Part shown: positions 2,672 to 42,530 of the stretch, piece by piece | How positions within the stretch are numbered: position 1 is the first letter of the stretch | How the letters are laid out: every line of letters begins with the position of its first letter | The notes under the pieces: generated by a model | The model's input: the letters and a program-made list of their open reading frames with translations, nothing else | The model's database searches: none | What the model was told of the DNA's origin: nothing | Assembly: GCF_006912135.1 (NCBI RefSeq) | Contig: NZ_VIRS01000026.1 | Coordinates: forward strand, 1 to 64,000 | Origin: Cryptosporangium phraense | GTDB lineage: Bacteria > Actinomycetota > Actinomycetes > Mycobacteriales > Cryptosporangiaceae | Length of the DNA: 64,000 nt | Direction: 5' to 3' | Translations under genes and position numbers: made by a program

Positions 2672-3535
2672 TCAGGGCGTGCGTTGCAGGTGATCGAGGA
2701 GGCGGGCCGGCCGGTTGGTCGCGATCATGTCGGCGCCCAGGCTGGTCACGAACTCGATGTCGGCCGGCTCGTCGACCGTCCAGACGTAGAGCTTGTTGCC
2801 GGCCGCGTGGATCCGCTCGGCGAACCGCGGCCGCGACCGCAGCACGTGGACTCCCGGCCCGGCGATCGTCGCGCCGAACGGCAGCGTGCCCTCGCGGTAC
2901 AGCCGGGGGATCCCGTCGAACAGCATCACCGCGGGCAGCGACGGCGCGAGCTCGCGCAGGCGTCGCACGGCCATCGGCGAGAACGACATGACGACGACCC
3001 GGGACGTCTCGACGTCGGGCGTGCGCACCTCGTCGAGCAGGCCGAACCGGCGCAGGCTGGCCACGACCCGCTGCTCGACCAGGCCGCCCCAGCGGGTCGG
3101 ATGCTTGGTCTCCACGTAGAGCTGGACCTTCCGCCCGGAGTCCACGAACAGCTCGAGCAGCCGGTCGAACGTCAGCACGCGACGCTGGGCGTCCCGGACC
3201 TTGTCGTCGTCGACGACCGGCCGGCGGTAGTCGAGGTCGCGGCCGGCCGCGACCAGGTCGTCCGCGGACTCCGGCAGGTCGACCTTCCAGGCTCCGAAGT
3301 CGAGCGAGTTCAGGTCCTCGAGCGACCGTTCGCTGACCGGTCCGCGTCCGTCGGACGTCCGTTCGAGACGACGGTCGTGGACGCAGACCAGGTGGCCGTC
3401 CCGAGTCAGGCGGACGTCACACTCGAGACCGTCCGCACCTTCGGCGAGCGCCTTCTCGTAGGCCGCCAACGTGTGCTCGGCCAGCAGATATGAAGAACCT
3501 CGATGGGCCACGACCAGTGGGCCGTCGGAGTGCAC
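2672..3535 (-). CDS. glycerophosphodiester phosphodiesterase
   Basis: Predicted to hydrolyse glycerophosphodiesters to glycerol-3-phosphate and an alcohol (GDPD/UgpQ family, TIM barrel). The 287 residues match the family. The catalytic HRG motif is at 11-13, the metal-binding LECD (Glu38, Asp40) follows, and the second catalytic His is in CVHDRRLERTSDG near residue 53. The C-terminal barrel strand motif LYVWTVDEP is also present. There is no signal peptide, so a cytoplasmic enzyme recycling phospholipid head groups is inferred. The start is GTG 3535. It could form a two-gene unit with the DUF5926 gene downstream. Confidence 0.92.
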   Translation of the reverse strand: MHSDGPLVVAHRGSSYLLAEHTLAAYEKALAEGADGLECDVRLTRDGHLVCVHDRRLERTSDGRGPVSERSLEDLNSLDFGAWKVDLPESADDLVAAGRDLDYRRPVVDDDKVRDAQRRVLTFDRLLELFVDSGRKVQLYVETKHPTRWGGLVEQRVVASLRRFGLLDEVRTPDVETSRVVVMSFSPMAVRRLRELAPSLPAVMLFDGIPRLYREGTLPFGATIAGPGVHVLRSRPRFAERIHAAGNKLYVWTVDEPADIEFVTSLGADMIATNRPARLLDHLQRTP

Positions 3536-4752: not shown

Positions 4753-4776
4753 GAGGGCCCACGTACGTGGGCCCTC
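4753..4776 (-). terminator. terminator hairpin downstream of the LCP gene
   Basis: Perfect palindrome: GAGGGCCCAC (4753-4762) pairs with GTGGGCCCTC (4767-4776) around a GTAC loop. It lies 8 bases beyond the stop of the LCP gene. There is no long U-tract, as is usual in high-GC actinobacteria. Confidence 0.75.
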
Positions 4777-36422: not shown

Positions 36423-37280
36423 ATGGTGTTCCGTCGCAAGAAGGCCTCGACGCTTGATCAAGCGTCGGCCAAGGCCAAGGAGATCGGCGCAGAGGTCGGG
36501 GCGGGGGTAGAGCACCTTCGTAACGCCGCTGTGGCGACCGCCGGGGCGGCACGGGACGCGGTCAAGCCGGCGGTCGGCAGCGCACGTGACGCGCTGGGGC
36601 CGAAGGTCGACGCCGCGCGAGTGGCCGTCGCCCCGCGGGTGGAGGCAGCACGGGTGGCCGTGGCTCCGAAGCTGGAGCAGGCCCTGGAGAGCGCTCGGGA
36701 GACCGTGGGGCCGCGGGTCGGTTCGGCCCGTGACACCGTGGTGAGCACCGCGAAGCCGAAGGTCGACCAGGTTCTGGTCGCGCTCGCACCGCTCGTCGCG
36801 GCCGCGGTCGAGGCGCAGAGCACCTCCAAGAAGCAGGTCAAGAAGTCTGCCAAGAAGTTCGAGAAGCAGACTCGCGGCCAGCGCAAGGAGGCGGCGAAGC
36901 GGGCGCGGGAGACCGCACTCGCCCTGCGCGGTCAGCGGCGTCGCCGGTGGCCGTGGATGCTGGCTGCGCTGGCGGCCGGTACGGCCGTCGGTGCCGGTGC
37001 GGCTCTGGCCGCACGTCGGAACCGTCAGCCGGAGTGGGAAGAGTACGACCTGATCGAGCCGGACAACCGGAACACGATCAAGGCGAAGGCCGACCAGGTC
37101 GCCGATCGCGTCTCCGACGCGGCCGCGGCCGCCAAGGACTCGGTGAGCACCGCGGCCGACAAGGCGGCGGACAAGGCCGACGCGGCGGCGGCAACGGTCA
37201 AGGCCAAGTCGGCTCAGGCCTCGGACGCGACCGCTTCCGCGGCTGACAACTCGACGGGCGCACACAGCCCCCGAAGCTGA
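36423..37280 (+). CDS. Ala-rich membrane protein (YtxH-like), unknown function
   Basis: A 285-residue protein starting at ATG 36423 behind GAGGGGG. The first 130 residues are low-complexity Ala/Val/Lys/Arg with repeated V-A-P-x-V-E-A-A-R and R-D-A-V/L motifs (amphipathic helix repeats). A Lys-rich stretch (about 140-175) precedes one hydrophobic helix (about 179-199), and the rest is Ala/Lys/Asp-rich with KADQVADRVSDAAA-type heptads. This is the composition of YtxH-like or apolipoprotein-like proteins that contact membranes, but no function is established. A hairpin terminator follows. Confidence 0.72.
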   Translation: MVFRRKKASTLDQASAKAKEIGAEVGAGVEHLRNAAVATAGAARDAVKPAVGSARDALGPKVDAARVAVAPRVEAARVAVAPKLEQALESARETVGPRVGSARDTVVSTAKPKVDQVLVALAPLVAAAVEAQSTSKKQVKKSAKKFEKQTRGQRKEAAKRARETALALRGQRRRRWPWMLAALAAGTAVGAGAALAARRNRQPEWEEYDLIEPDNRNTIKAKADQVADRVSDAAAAAKDSVSTAADKAADKADAAAATVKAKSAQASDATASAADNSTGAHSPRS

Positions 37281-38469: not shown

Positions 38470-38555
38470 GCCGTCACCTCCCGGTGGAGAGCTACCTGCG
38501 GTTGTCCAACTGCCCCAGGATAGGCCGCTGTGACTCGGTACACGGCGTCTACCCG

Positions 38556-38583
38556 TTGGGTTACTGGATCGATCCAGTACGCT
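38556..38583 (+). promoter_or_regulatory. promoter of the 32-codon gene, with an 18-bp palindrome
   Basis: TTGGGT (38556-38561) and TACGCT (38578-38583) are separated by 16 bases. The spacer is almost filled by TACTGGATCGATCCAGTA (38562-38579), a perfect 18-bp inverted repeat overlapping the -10 hexamer. A repressor bound there would block transcription. Confidence 0.6.
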
Positions 38584-38630
38584 GGTAAGCGTACGAACAC
38601 ACCACAGACAACCCCGAAGGGGAGAGCTTG

Positions 38631-38729
38631 ATGCCCGTCCTGTTGGCTCCGAGCCGACTCACGGTCGACATGTTTCGCACGCTGCTTCGTCGCCTCGACG
38701 AATGGACGCTGCGGGCGTTCAACGCCTGA
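38631..38729 (+). CDS. 32-residue peptide gene with its own promoter and terminator
   Basis: A very small open frame encoding 32 residues (MPVLLAPSRL... ending AFNA), with a charged amphipathic second half (MFRTLLRRLDEWTLRAF). AAGGGGAG lies 7 bases upstream of ATG 38631. A promoter with an 18-bp palindrome precedes it by about 50 bases, and a 14-bp perfect hairpin follows directly. The amphipathic, basic, Trp- and Phe-containing helix could bind a membrane or protein. An RNA-only transcript cannot be excluded. The function is unknown and no family was recognised. Confidence 0.6.
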   Translation: MPVLLAPSRLTVDMFRTLLRRLDEWTLRAFNA

Positions 38730-38737
38730 CGTAGTTC

Positions 38738-38770
38738 GGGCCGGTCAGACGAATTACGTCTGACCGGCCC
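38738..38770. terminator. strong bidirectional hairpin terminator
   Basis: GGGCCGGTCAGACG (38738-38751) pairs perfectly with CGTCTGACCGGCCC (38757-38770) around AATTA. It is shared by the 32-codon gene and the convergent symporter-partner gene, whose stop is 7 bases away. Confidence 0.88.
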
Positions 38771-38776
38771 CTTCGT

Positions 38777-39064
38777 TCAGGCGTCCGGATCGTCGGTGGC
38801 GGCCACCGACTTCGGTGCGTTCGCGCGCAGCGGCCGCAGCCACGACCAGAGCCCGAAGAGTGCCCCCAGCACGAACATGCCGATGCCGGTCCACAGATTG
38901 ATCCGGATGCCGTCGGCCTTCTGCACCTCGCTGTCGGAATCGAAGATTCCGAGCACGATCAGGACGACGCCGTACAGCAGGAACAGGCCGGCGATGAGCC
39001 AGCGCAGATCGAACAGGCCGCGGGACGCGGACTGGGCGTGGACTTCCTCGTCGGTTTCGGACAT
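38777..39064 (-). CDS. small membrane protein, symporter partner
   Basis: A 95-residue protein with two hydrophobic helices (about 24-42 and 56-78) and charged ends. It follows the SSS symporter by 14 bases and has the size and layout of the small accessory protein found beside many such transporters. The start is ATG 39064, with AGGAG 8 bases upstream; GTG 39067 just before it is also in frame. The function is unknown. Confidence 0.75.
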   Translation of the reverse strand: MSETDEEVHAQSASRGLFDLRWLIAGLFLLYGVVLIVLGIFDSDSEVQKADGIRINLWTGIGMFVLGALFGLWSWLRPLRANAPKSVAATDDPDA

Positions 39065-39078
39065 CACGGGCTCCTAAC

Positions 39079-40761
39079 TCAGAGGAAGATGATCGACAGG
39101 ACGGCCGTGATGCCGAGGGCGGAGAAGCCCAGCACCTTCGGCGACTCCCACCAGCGGCGGACGTTCTGCGCGTCGGCGGCATCCGGGTTGTCGGGGTCGG
39201 GAACGCCCCAGACCAGACCCTTGACCTCGTCGATCGGCTTCGGCTTGGTCACCATCGTGACGATGACCGTCACCAGGACGTCGATGACGAACGCGGCGAT
39301 AGCGCCCCAGAAGTTCCGGCTCTGCACCGACTCGAGGTGCACGACCGCGGGCAGCCCGAGCTTCTCGTTCAGGCTGAGGTAGGCCAGGACGGCTGCGGCA
39401 GTGCCGGAGACCAGGCCGGCGAACCCGGCCCACGGGGTCATGCGCTTCCAGAACACGCCGACGATGAACGTCGCGAACAGCGGGGCGTTGAAGAACGAGA
39501 ACAGCGCCTGGACGTAGTTCATGATGTTCTCGAAGCCGGCCGCGATGAACGCGGTGCCGATCCCGATCAGGATGCCGACCACCGTGACGATCCGGCCGAC
39601 CTGCAGGTAGTACCGGTCCGGACGGTCCTTGGCGACGTACGGCCGCCACAGGTCGTAGGTGAACACCGTGTTGAACGAGCTGACGTTCGCCGCCATACCG
39701 GCCATGAACGCGGCCAGCAGACCGGTCAGCGCGATGCCCAGCACGCCGTTGGGCAGGAACTTGGCCATGAGCTCGGGGATCGCGTCGTTGTAGGTCGGGC
39801 CGCCGTCCTGGCCCAGCTTCGGGATCAGGACGAGCGCGACGAGACCCGGGATGATCGTCAGCGCCGGGATGAAAATCTTCGGGAACGCGCCGATCAGCGG
39901 GGTGCGCTGGGCGGCGGAGAGGTCCTTGGCGCTCAGCGCTCGCTGGACCTCGGCGAAGTTCGTCGTCCAGTAGCCGAAGCTCAACACGAAGCCGAGGCCG
40001 AAGACGATGCCGATCCAGTCGCCGAGCGGGTTCGTGGTGTTGCCGACGGCCGTGCCGCCCCACTGGCTGAACGCCGCCGCGCCGAGGTCGGTGTTGTCGG
40101 TGACCTTGTCCTTCAGGCCGTCCCAGCCGCCGACCGCCGACAGGCCGACGATCACCAGCGGGATCAGGCCGGCCAGGATGACGAAGAACTGGAGCACCTC
40201 GGTGTAGATCGCGCCGGACAGGCCGCCGAGCGTGATGTAGATCAGCACGAAGCCGGCCGAGATGAAGATCGCCACCCAGAGCGGCCAGCCGAGCAGGCTC
40301 TGGATGATCAGGCCGAGCGCGTAGAGGTTGACGCCCGCGGTGAGCACCGAGGCGACCGCGAACGTCAGCGCGTTGAACGCGTGCGTCGGGTTGTTGAACC
40401 GGCGCCGCAGGTACTCGGGGACGCTGTGCACGCGCGTCGAGTAGTAGAACGGCATCAGCACCAGGCCGAGGAAGATCATCGCCGGCACGGCGCCGATCCA
40501 GTAGAAGTGGACCGTCGAGATGCCGTACTCGGCGCCGTTGGCGGCCATGCCGAGGATCTCCAGCGCACCGAGGTTGGCGGCGACGAACGCGAGCCCGGTC
40601 ACCCAGGCGGGCAGCGCCCGGCCGGAGAGGAAGAAGTCCTCACTCGTGGCCACCGCCCGCCGGGCGAGCAAACCGATCGCGATGACGATGGCGAAGTAGA
40701 TCCCGAGAATCGTGTAGTCGATGCCGTTGACATCCAGCGTGGCTGCCAAGTCGGTCGTCAT
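39079..40761 (-). CDS. sodium:solute symporter (SSS, SGLT-like)
   Basis: A 560-residue Na+ symporter with about 13-14 membrane segments. Family landmarks: DFFLSGRALPAWVTG, ANLGALEILGMAANGAEYG, YIGAVPAM-like loop, VHSVPEYLRRRFN and the sodium-site helix TYDLWRPYVAKDRPD. It resembles sugar/inositol or other neutral-solute symporters more than acetate permeases; the substrate is unknown. The 108-base gap to the upstream TetR gene holds AAAGGGG before ATG 40761 and could contain a TetR-controlled promoter. This is the third SSS transporter in the window. Confidence 0.88.
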   Translation of the reverse strand: MTTDLAATLDVNGIDYTILGIYFAIVIAIGLLARRAVATSEDFFLSGRALPAWVTGLAFVAANLGALEILGMAANGAEYGISTVHFYWIGAVPAMIFLGLVLMPFYYSTRVHSVPEYLRRRFNNPTHAFNALTFAVASVLTAGVNLYALGLIIQSLLGWPLWVAIFISAGFVLIYITLGGLSGAIYTEVLQFFVILAGLIPLVIVGLSAVGGWDGLKDKVTDNTDLGAAAFSQWGGTAVGNTTNPLGDWIGIVFGLGFVLSFGYWTTNFAEVQRALSAKDLSAAQRTPLIGAFPKIFIPALTIIPGLVALVLIPKLGQDGGPTYNDAIPELMAKFLPNGVLGIALTGLLAAFMAGMAANVSSFNTVFTYDLWRPYVAKDRPDRYYLQVGRIVTVVGILIGIGTAFIAAGFENIMNYVQALFSFFNAPLFATFIVGVFWKRMTPWAGFAGLVSGTAAAVLAYLSLNEKLGLPAVVHLESVQSRNFWGAIAAFVIDVLVTVIVTMVTKPKPIDEVKGLVWGVPDPDNPDAADAQNVRRWWESPKVLGFSALGITAVLSIIFL

Positions 40762-40869: not shown

Positions 40870-41448
40870 TCAGGCGATGTCGAGAGTGGTCTTCGTCAGG
40901 GGCGAGAGCGCGTTGAGGACGAGATTCGTCAGCAGGGCTTTCGGGCTCTGCAGGCCGTCTTGAGGCGAGTTCATCAGGCCGAAGATCGCGTGGGTGGCGG
41001 CGCGGGCTTCCTCGGGTGACCAGTCCGGGCGCACCTGGACGAGGACCTGCACCCATTCGTCGGCGTACTGGCGCTGCAGCTTCCGGACCGACTTCTTGGC
41101 GTCCGGAGGTAGCCGGTCGATCTCGTGCAGGTAGAGGCGCAGGAGGGACGGGCTGCCCAGCGCGAACTCGACGTGGAAGTCGACCAGCGAACGCAGGGCG
41201 GACTCCGCGTCGGGCGCCTTGGCGACGCGGCGGCGCCCTTCGTCACGCAGGTGCTTGCAGACCGGGGTGAACGCGGCGGCCAGCATGGCCTCTTTGCCGG
41301 CGAAGTGGTGGTACAGAGCCGGGCCGGTGACGCCGGCCGCGGCCCCCACGTCGTCCATCGAGACGCCGTGGTAGCCGCGGCGGGCGAACAGGTCGACCGC
41401 GATCGTCAGGATCTCGTCCCGGCGGGTGGAGGGAGCGTCTAGGAACAT
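40870..41448 (-). CDS. TetR-family transcriptional regulator
   Basis: A 192-residue dimeric repressor-type protein. The N-terminal helix-turn-helix (RRDEILTIAVDLFARRGYHGVSMDDVGAAAGVTGPALYHHFAGKEAML) is in the first 60 residues, and the remaining all-helical ligand domain is unmatched. The start at ATG 41448 overlaps the 3' end of the upstream LCP gene by 10 bases. The downstream symporter pair is the probable target; regulation of the palindrome-bearing promoter at 38556 is another possibility. The ligand is unknown. Confidence 0.9.
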   Translation of the reverse strand: MFLDAPSTRRDEILTIAVDLFARRGYHGVSMDDVGAAAGVTGPALYHHFAGKEAMLAAAFTPVCKHLRDEGRRRVAKAPDAESALRSLVDFHVEFALGSPSLLRLYLHEIDRLPPDAKKSVRKLQRQYADEWVQVLVQVRPDWSPEEARAATHAIFGLMNSPQDGLQSPKALLTNLVLNALSPLTKTTLDIA

Positions 41449-42530
41449 GCGCCGGTCGTACCGGCGTCGGCCGGCGGGTTCGCGGCCAGGTAGGCGTCCA
41501 TCGTGTCGTCGCGCAGGGCCGCGTAGAGCTGCTCGCCCTTGACCGGGTCGAGCTCGACCGAGCTGCCGGCCGGCGTCTGCAGGTCGTCGGTAGTGAACGG
41601 GAGCGTCGTGCACCGCAGGTTGTTCGGCCGCAGCTTCTTGAGGCCGAGGGCCAGGTCGGGCAGATCGACGCTCTGGTCGACGGTGACCGACTCGGCGACC
41701 GTGCTCACCAGCTTGTCGAGCTTCAACGGGTCGGTGAGGATGCCCTTGGTCGTCATCTTTTTCGCGACCGCGAGGATGACCCGCTGCTGGTTCTGCATCC
41801 GGCCGAAGTCACCGCCGGGCACGGTCTTGCGCTGACGCATGAAGTCTTGAGCGCCGTCGGCGGTGAGGTAGTTGCACCCCTTCTTCCACTTCCGCGTGGT
41901 GTGGATCGAGTGCATCGAGAACGGGATGCAGACCGTGACGCCACCGACGATGCCGACGAGCTTCCGCACGCTGTTGAAGTCGAGCAGGAACGCACCGTTG
42001 AAATCGACGCCGGTGAGCTGCTGGACGGTCTTGGCGGTCAGGGCCGCGCCGCCGTGCACGAAAGCCGCGTTGATCTTGTCTTTGCCGCCCAGCCACTTGC
42101 CGTCGCCGGACGCGGGAATGTCGACGTAGCTGTCACGCGGTACCGAGACGATGTACGTCTTGCTCAGCGTCTTGTCGATGTGGGCGATCATGATCGTGTC
42201 CGACCGCAGACCGTCGGTCTTGGCGAAACTCGGATCGGTGACCCGGTTGTCGGAACCGAGGATCAGGAAGTTCAGCGGCCCCTCGGTGTACGAGGACTGC
42301 TTCTCCGAGAGGTTGCCGAGGATGTCGGCCCGCTTGACCTTGCTGTTGTACCGGTTCGTCAGGCCGTAGGCCGCGGTCAGCGTGCCGCTGGCCAGCACGA
42401 CCAGGACCGCGCCGAAGATGATGCACGCCTTCGCCCAGGGCGGTGCTTTCGGCGTGCGTCGCGCCGTGGTGGAGCGGATTGGGGCCGGACCCGGTGCATC
42501 CGGCGGGGCCTCCTTCAGGCCGACTGCCAT
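41439..42530 (-). CDS. LCP family glycopolymer transferase (second copy)
   Basis: A 363-residue LCP protein with a Pro-rich cytoplasmic N-terminus, one membrane helix (about 34-56) and the LCP catalytic domain: NFLILGSDNRV, RSDTIMIAHID, YIVSVPRDSYVDIP, KINAAFVHGGAA and DFMRQRKTVPGGDFGRMQNQQ. It probably ligates wall glycopolymers to peptidoglycan, like the copy at 4.8 kb. I chose ATG 42530 with GAGGAG upstream. Two Cys residues near the C-terminus and in GCNYL may pair. Its stop overlaps the TetR start by 10 bases. Confidence 0.92.
   Translation of the reverse strand: MAVGLKEAPPDAPGPAPIRSTTARRTPKAPPWAKACIIFGAVLVVLASGTLTAAYGLTNRYNSKVKRADILGNLSEKQSSYTEGPLNFLILGSDNRVTDPSFAKTDGLRSDTIMIAHIDKTLSKTYIVSVPRDSYVDIPASGDGKWLGGKDKINAAFVHGGAALTAKTVQQLTGVDFNGAFLLDFNSVRKLVGIVGGVTVCIPFSMHSIHTTRKWKKGCNYLTADGAQDFMRQRKTVPGGDFGRMQNQQRVILAVAKKMTTKGILTDPLKLDKLVSTVAESVTVDQSVDLPDLALGLKKLRPNNLRCTTLPFTTDDLQTPAGSSVELDPVKGEQLYAALRDDTMDAYLAANPPADAGTTGACS

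Follow-up and report, generated by a model that had tools for sequence, protein, structure and literature searches.

Small proteins behind CRP-type and palindromic promoter elements in actinobacteria: a putative carbon-regulon micropeptide family found in Cryptosporangium phraense

A few proteobacteria are known to have small proteins with which they adjust sugar uptake and central metabolism. SgrT, a 43-aa peptide of the SgrS RNA of E. coli, is tied to sugar status and acts on a sugar transporter (PMC3901232), and VcdP, the 29-aa protein of the CRP-controlled VcdRP of Vibrio cholerae, keeps carbon uptake in balance with central metabolism (PMC8672173). At the level of the operator, the bifidobacterial AraQ/MalR1 LacI regulon has palindromic sites in front of central carbon genes, gap and pyk among them (PMC6882875, PMC4746261). 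The AraQ consensus is TGTGAGCGCTCACA, and its authors reported in 2016 no distant AraQ sites in other Actinomycetales; the same study names Cra/FruR of enterobacteria as a global regulator of central carbon metabolism (PMC4746261).

The locus described here, a 32-residue reading frame on the forward strand of a 64,000-nucleotide stretch of Cryptosporangium phraense DNA (the window), resembles each of these systems in part. Like SgrT the protein is tiny, and it lies next to an SGLT-like symporter, behind regulatory sites of a carbon type; however, the target of SgrT is EIICB-Glc, a PTS transporter, its coding RNA acts by base pairing, and no sequence relation between the two proteins was detected. 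With VcdRP/VcdP the locus has in common a tiny protein and CRP-type control, predicted here from a box, but VcdRP is repressed by CRP whereas the box at this locus lies upstream at an activator-like place, and VcdP, which binds citrate synthase, has no homology to the peptide. We propose by analogy that the peptide works most like SgrT and VcdP, yet it is a member of neither family. Indeed, it shows no homology to any named small-protein family: none of 22 members of its own family that were compared has a match in Pfam or NCBIfam at E<=0.01, and comparison with the solved structures of the PDB gave only a chance-level match (5ng7, E 0.03). No description of the peptide or of its palindrome was found in the open-licence papers searched.

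Reading along the forward strand, the unit begins with a putative CRP-type box GTGACTCGGTACAC (GTG-N8-CAC, 38530..38543), which is kept in the genus and is the sole box of this pattern between positions 37000 and 42000 of the window. It is followed by a possible, weak -35 element TTGGGT (38556..38561, 3/6 to consensus), the 18-bp palindrome TACTGGATCGATCCAGTA (38562..38579), a putative operator kept in the congeners, and a possible -10 element TACGCT (38578..38583), suggested by the genus alignment, in which the congeners have TAGGCT or TAGCCT. A ribosome binding site GGGGAGAG (38619..38626), closely matched in the congeners G002 and G003, then precedes the frame itself, which encodes MPVLLAPSRLTVDMFRTLLRRLDEWTLRAFNA and runs from the ATG at 38631 through the stop codon to 38729. 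The palindrome, the ribosome binding site, the 32-codon frame and a perfect 14-bp hairpin had all been listed in a preliminary description of this DNA, and all are confirmed in the sequence. The promoter predicted there is weak as judged by the sigma-70 consensus, with which TTGGGT-16-TACGCT agrees at only 3+3 of 12 positions; a consensus scan returned neither a sigma-70 promoter nor a U-tract terminator, and the CRP-type box had been overlooked.

The hairpin, a probable bidirectional terminator belonging to neither strand in particular (38738..38770), has the arms GGGCCGGTCAGACG and CGTCTGACCGGCCC and the loop AATTA, and folds at -39 kcal/mol on both strands (z about -6.2). It had been taken for the unit's own terminator. 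Given that it has no U tract and is positioned between two convergent genes, it is not the peptide's own, and probably ends both convergent transcripts, that of the peptide and that of the DUF gene; at the same place G002 and G003 have different, unrelated hairpins. Beyond it, on the reverse strand, lie the convergent gene for a small membrane protein of ~95 aa (38777..39067), which matched no family above cut-off, the SGLT-like sodium/solute symporter (39079..40761; PF00474, E 2.7e-54) and a TetR-family regulator (40870..41613; PF00440). An Rfam search of the window returned tRNAs only.

That the 32-residue frame is a real coding gene, and a member of an unnamed actinobacterial micropeptide family, is well supported by sequence comparison. 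Both the peptide sequence and the palindrome, which the preliminary description had proposed seeking in relatives together with codon-level conservation, were found there. A whole-genome search located the peptide in the corresponding position of G002 and of G003, and within the genus pN is 0.10-0.14 and pS 0.29-0.42 (pN/pS about 0.3-0.35), with a length difference of four codons (12 nt) that is in-frame; pN so far below pS argues that the protein itself matters. Further afield, the peptide profile has matches in the families f1, f5, f9, f14, f16 and f41 (labels given by the search tool to actinobacterial families), with Pseudonocardia xinjiangensis among the loci bearing a relative. In f14 the peptide is present in 42 of 150 genomes, and most peptide-bearing genomes have a single copy in synteny. 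The stand-alone peptides, of ~27-47 residues, have a common core RRxDxWTLxAFNPxxPxR in which Arg-Arg, Asp-x-Trp-Thr and Phe-Asn are conserved, D, T and N being invariant in the 22 aligned members, and the predicted structure is a single helix spanning residues 6-31 (mean pLDDT 79). These homologues and their conserved motif lend support to the earlier proposal of a small protein behind a repressor-type operator. Larger proteins matched by early profiles (L060, L063, L065, L067 and others like them) were taken to be chance hits and dropped.

In the peptide promoters a GTG-N8-CAC box is followed by a motif TCGGGAACGATTCAGAA. The CRP site has the consensus TGTGA-N6-TCACA, with GTG-N8-CAC as its core (PMC4117774), and the box upstream of the promoter is of this type, as expected of a member of a CRP regulon. 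In a non-redundant set of 38 peptide promoters, 33 have the box somewhere in the 60 bp that precede the motif, as compared with 3.7% of random 60-mers drawn from these loci. It is present in all four members of the genus; the spacing between box and motif is usually 8 bp, and about 18-19 bp in the home genus. The motif itself scores at least 15/17 in 31 of the 38 promoters compared with 6 of 2716 random segments. It is more palindromic in the home genus (CTGGATCGATCCAG, CTGTATCGATCCAG), and takes a palindromic form as CTGGATCGATCCAG in the home genome and as TTGGATCGATCCAA in f41. The palindrome is kept in the congeners G001, G002 and G003, in two of them with one-base variants, and an equivalent motif precedes the peptide in f5, f9 and f14. 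Palindromy as such carries little weight: the window has six perfect palindromes of at least 18 bp where mononucleotide shuffles give 0.8, so that the palindrome by itself is weak evidence and proves nothing, and its rarity was rejected as an argument. The signal is the exact palindrome sequence and its conservation. Longer perfect palindromes are found in the window at 4753-4776 (24 bp), 3235-3254 (20 bp) and 36448-36467 (20 bp). TACTGKATCGATMCAGTA has no other match within 3 mismatches in the 64 kb, where none would be expected, and a scan of viral contigs for the full promoter pattern gave no match.

The palindrome reaches well beyond the peptide in f41. Exact TTGGATCGATCCAA occurs at 31 sites in 24 of 150 f41 genomes (L197-L227), compared with zero sites for its reversed control pattern in all 150. 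Carbon genes, the peptide or a gene we term gene 2 (described below) follow 29 of the 31: a glucan-phosphorylase-type enzyme (glycogen phosphorylase) at 16, GAPDH at 4, pyruvate kinase at 3, phosphofructokinase and a debranching-type enzyme at 1 each, gene 2 at 3 (L216, L221, L223) and the peptide at 1 (L206), one protein of each enzyme class having been confirmed by Pfam. The other two sites have no obvious carbon gene downstream, and no transcription-factor gene was seen among the 31. In this one lineage a single operator thus stands before both the peptide and central carbon genes, and TTGGATCGATCCAA is apparently an undescribed, putative glycolysis/glycogen operator of actinobacteria. The f41 regulon is like that of AraQ/MalR1 in its targets and in being actinobacterial, but the operators differ, TGTGAGCGCTCACA against TCGGGAACGATTCAGAA or TTGGATCGATCCAA, and the palindrome does not fit the AraQ operator; a limited literature search for a comparable central-carbon operator in actinobacteria led to the bifidobacteria only, with this different sequence. 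The Cra/FruR operator, TGAAWCG.., resembles TGAATCG in the motif read in reverse, a resemblance of short motifs only.

The home genus has weaker sites as well. With at most two mismatches, they are found before the glucose-6-phosphate dehydrogenase gene (zwf) in the home genome (G000), upstream of that for trehalose-phosphate synthase (otsA) in G001 and G002, and upstream of transketolase in G002, and a variant site lies between genes for a ROK-family regulator and a sugar-binding protein in G000 and G002 (L228, L241), the same type of site being listed also in G001 and G003, that is in all four genus members. As two-mismatch sites in the genus are only about twice as frequent as those of the reversed-pattern background, these are suggestive only, and the ROK regulator is a candidate, no further, for reader or target of the palindrome.

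The closest solved relatives of the symporter are vSGLT (2xq2, E 3e-56), SGLT1 (1.5e-54) and SGLT2 (4e-46), against only 7e-19 for a monocarboxylate transporter. At nearly every locus in f1, f5 and f14 the peptide gene converges on the genes for the small membrane protein and the symporter (on the symporter at 29 of 30 f14 loci), and the ~95-aa membrane protein is co-conserved with the symporter at peptide loci. This synteny backs the link to the adjacent symporter made in the preliminary description, though not the one made to CorA, as corA is a divergent neighbour in this genus only and the promoter elements persist elsewhere without it. Peptide loci in f9, f16 and f41 have different neighbours, and given that this symporter is missing next to several of those in f16 and f41, it cannot be the only target; the symporter operon itself is without the motif in the orthologues checked. 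In the f41 genome G577 (L142) the peptide gene converges on that of a membrane transport protein of the auxin-efflux-carrier type (PF03547), so a transporter neighbour recurs there, though a different one.

The arrangement of these genes could also be read as that of an RNA. If the transcript were the effector, a cis-antisense or interfering RNA would run into the 3' end of the DUF-symporter operon and lower its expression, and the frame would be secondary. Convergence is kept at nearly every f14 locus, and the stop-to-stop gap between the peptide and the convergent gene is very short in f5 and f14 members, so that the 3' ends there probably overlap; in the home genus, however, the hairpin separates the genes. 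The protein-level constraint, the in-frame nature of the 12-nt difference, the fusion of the peptide domain to another protein in f16 and the occurrence of the peptide without the symporter as a neighbour in f9, f16 and f41 all argue against an RNA effector, which we hold to be unlikely. A peptide that is short, basic, predicted to be helical and unannotated might instead be a membrane-active small protein of the toxin type, carbon-regulated and unrelated to control of the symporter, but in most genomes it is a single conserved copy in synteny, its operator is common to housekeeping carbon genes, it is found fused to a second domain and an antitoxin-like partner was not seen, which makes a toxin very unlikely.

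Two further readings concern the promoter. The congener G001 (L019 / L128) has lost the peptide and keeps both the palindrome and the CRP-type box, in the interval from corA to the gene of the small membrane protein, so these elements may also serve corA or be remnants. Taken further, they would act mainly for the divergent corA or for general intergenic transcription, with the peptide as a passenger, but in f5, f9 and f14 the elements precede the peptide where the upstream gene is a different one, not corA, and we give this little credence. Least probable to our mind is that the palindrome is the operator of the TetR-family regulator at 40870, controlling a small protein or RNA, as the preliminary description had ventured. 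A TetR gene does lie near the symporter in six genomes (G000, G001, G003, G008, G023 and G035), and an 18-bp palindrome fits a TetR dimer. However, tblastn (E<1e-6) found no TetR in the 18-kb region of G002 or in the regions of the inspected f14 genomes, all of which keep both peptide and motif; there is no second copy of the palindrome near tetR, and in f41 it stands before glycolysis genes. Because the motif persists where this regulator is absent from beside the symporter, TetR control is unlikely, and the regulator, whose gene does not consistently co-occur with the operator, was rejected as its reader. Comparison of the palindrome with OsdR/DevR sites (AGGGCCGATCGGCCCT, PMC5069765) and with RokB sites (PMC4856308) gave no match in either case.

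We return to a protein under carbon control. Very probably, as judged from the comparisons above, the frame is a coding gene in a carbon regulon. Its relatives in several families stand behind the same two elements, usually beside a transporter of the sodium/sugar type, which indicates that it is probably a small protein tuning sugar uptake or use; on balance we favour, as an account of the whole, a helical small protein which belongs to a carbon-status regulon and which binds and tunes a transporter or an enzyme of central metabolism. The level of the peptide would be set by carbon status through cAMP-CRP, activating when preferred carbon is short, and through a dimeric regulator of sugar metabolism that would repress or tune. 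The helix would bind and tune a protein involved in carbon uptake or in central metabolism, as SgrT does with the glucose transporter and VcdP with citrate synthase. Where they are adjacent, the symporter or its small membrane partner would be the probable target and the first candidate, the assignment of the symporter in particular being tentative; where the symporter is not adjacent, the target would be an enzyme, together with the gene-2 protein. Were this true, actinobacteria would have a family of sugar-tuning small proteins absent from Pfam and NCBIfam and with no detected relation to the proteobacterial ones. The same data point to an undescribed operator common to glycogen phosphorylase, GAPDH, pyruvate kinase and phosphofructokinase, and both the reader of the palindrome and the binding partner of the peptide are directly testable.

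Gene 2 encodes a helical protein of 78 residues (G000 C32:33896-34175; L024, L111, L148), and the one other perfect site of the home genome, CTGTATCGATACAG at C32:33896, lies upstream of it. Its operator is present in all four genus members, the three congeners having weaker versions at the same place. In the f41 genomes G577 and G667, gene-2 relatives have TTGGATCGATCCAA and a near copy upstream, and the peptides of these two genomes have the same type of site. In f16 there are fused genes of about 133-139 codons, with a gene-2-like N-terminal and a peptide-like C-terminal part: a gene-2 HMM built without f16 matches the fused proteins at 1e-7 to 3e-10, and a peptide profile, likewise built without f16, detects them too (about 1e-6 to 1e-8). 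Fusion and common operators together suggest that the gene-2 protein and the peptide act together. The pair is not obligatory, as no gene-2 match was found in the peptide-bearing f14 and f5 genomes tested. Neither gene 2 nor the fused protein matched a Pfam or NCBIfam model, and the gene-2 family matched none of the solved structures in the PDB. It is conceivable, though we would put it forward with some diffidence, that the 32-residue helix and the gene-2 protein form a two-part micropeptide system, under CRP and a global glycolysis/glycogen regulator, which would directly gate an SGLT-type symporter or a glycolytic enzyme. The home genome also has a shorter gene-2 paralogue, at C43:2899 (L166).
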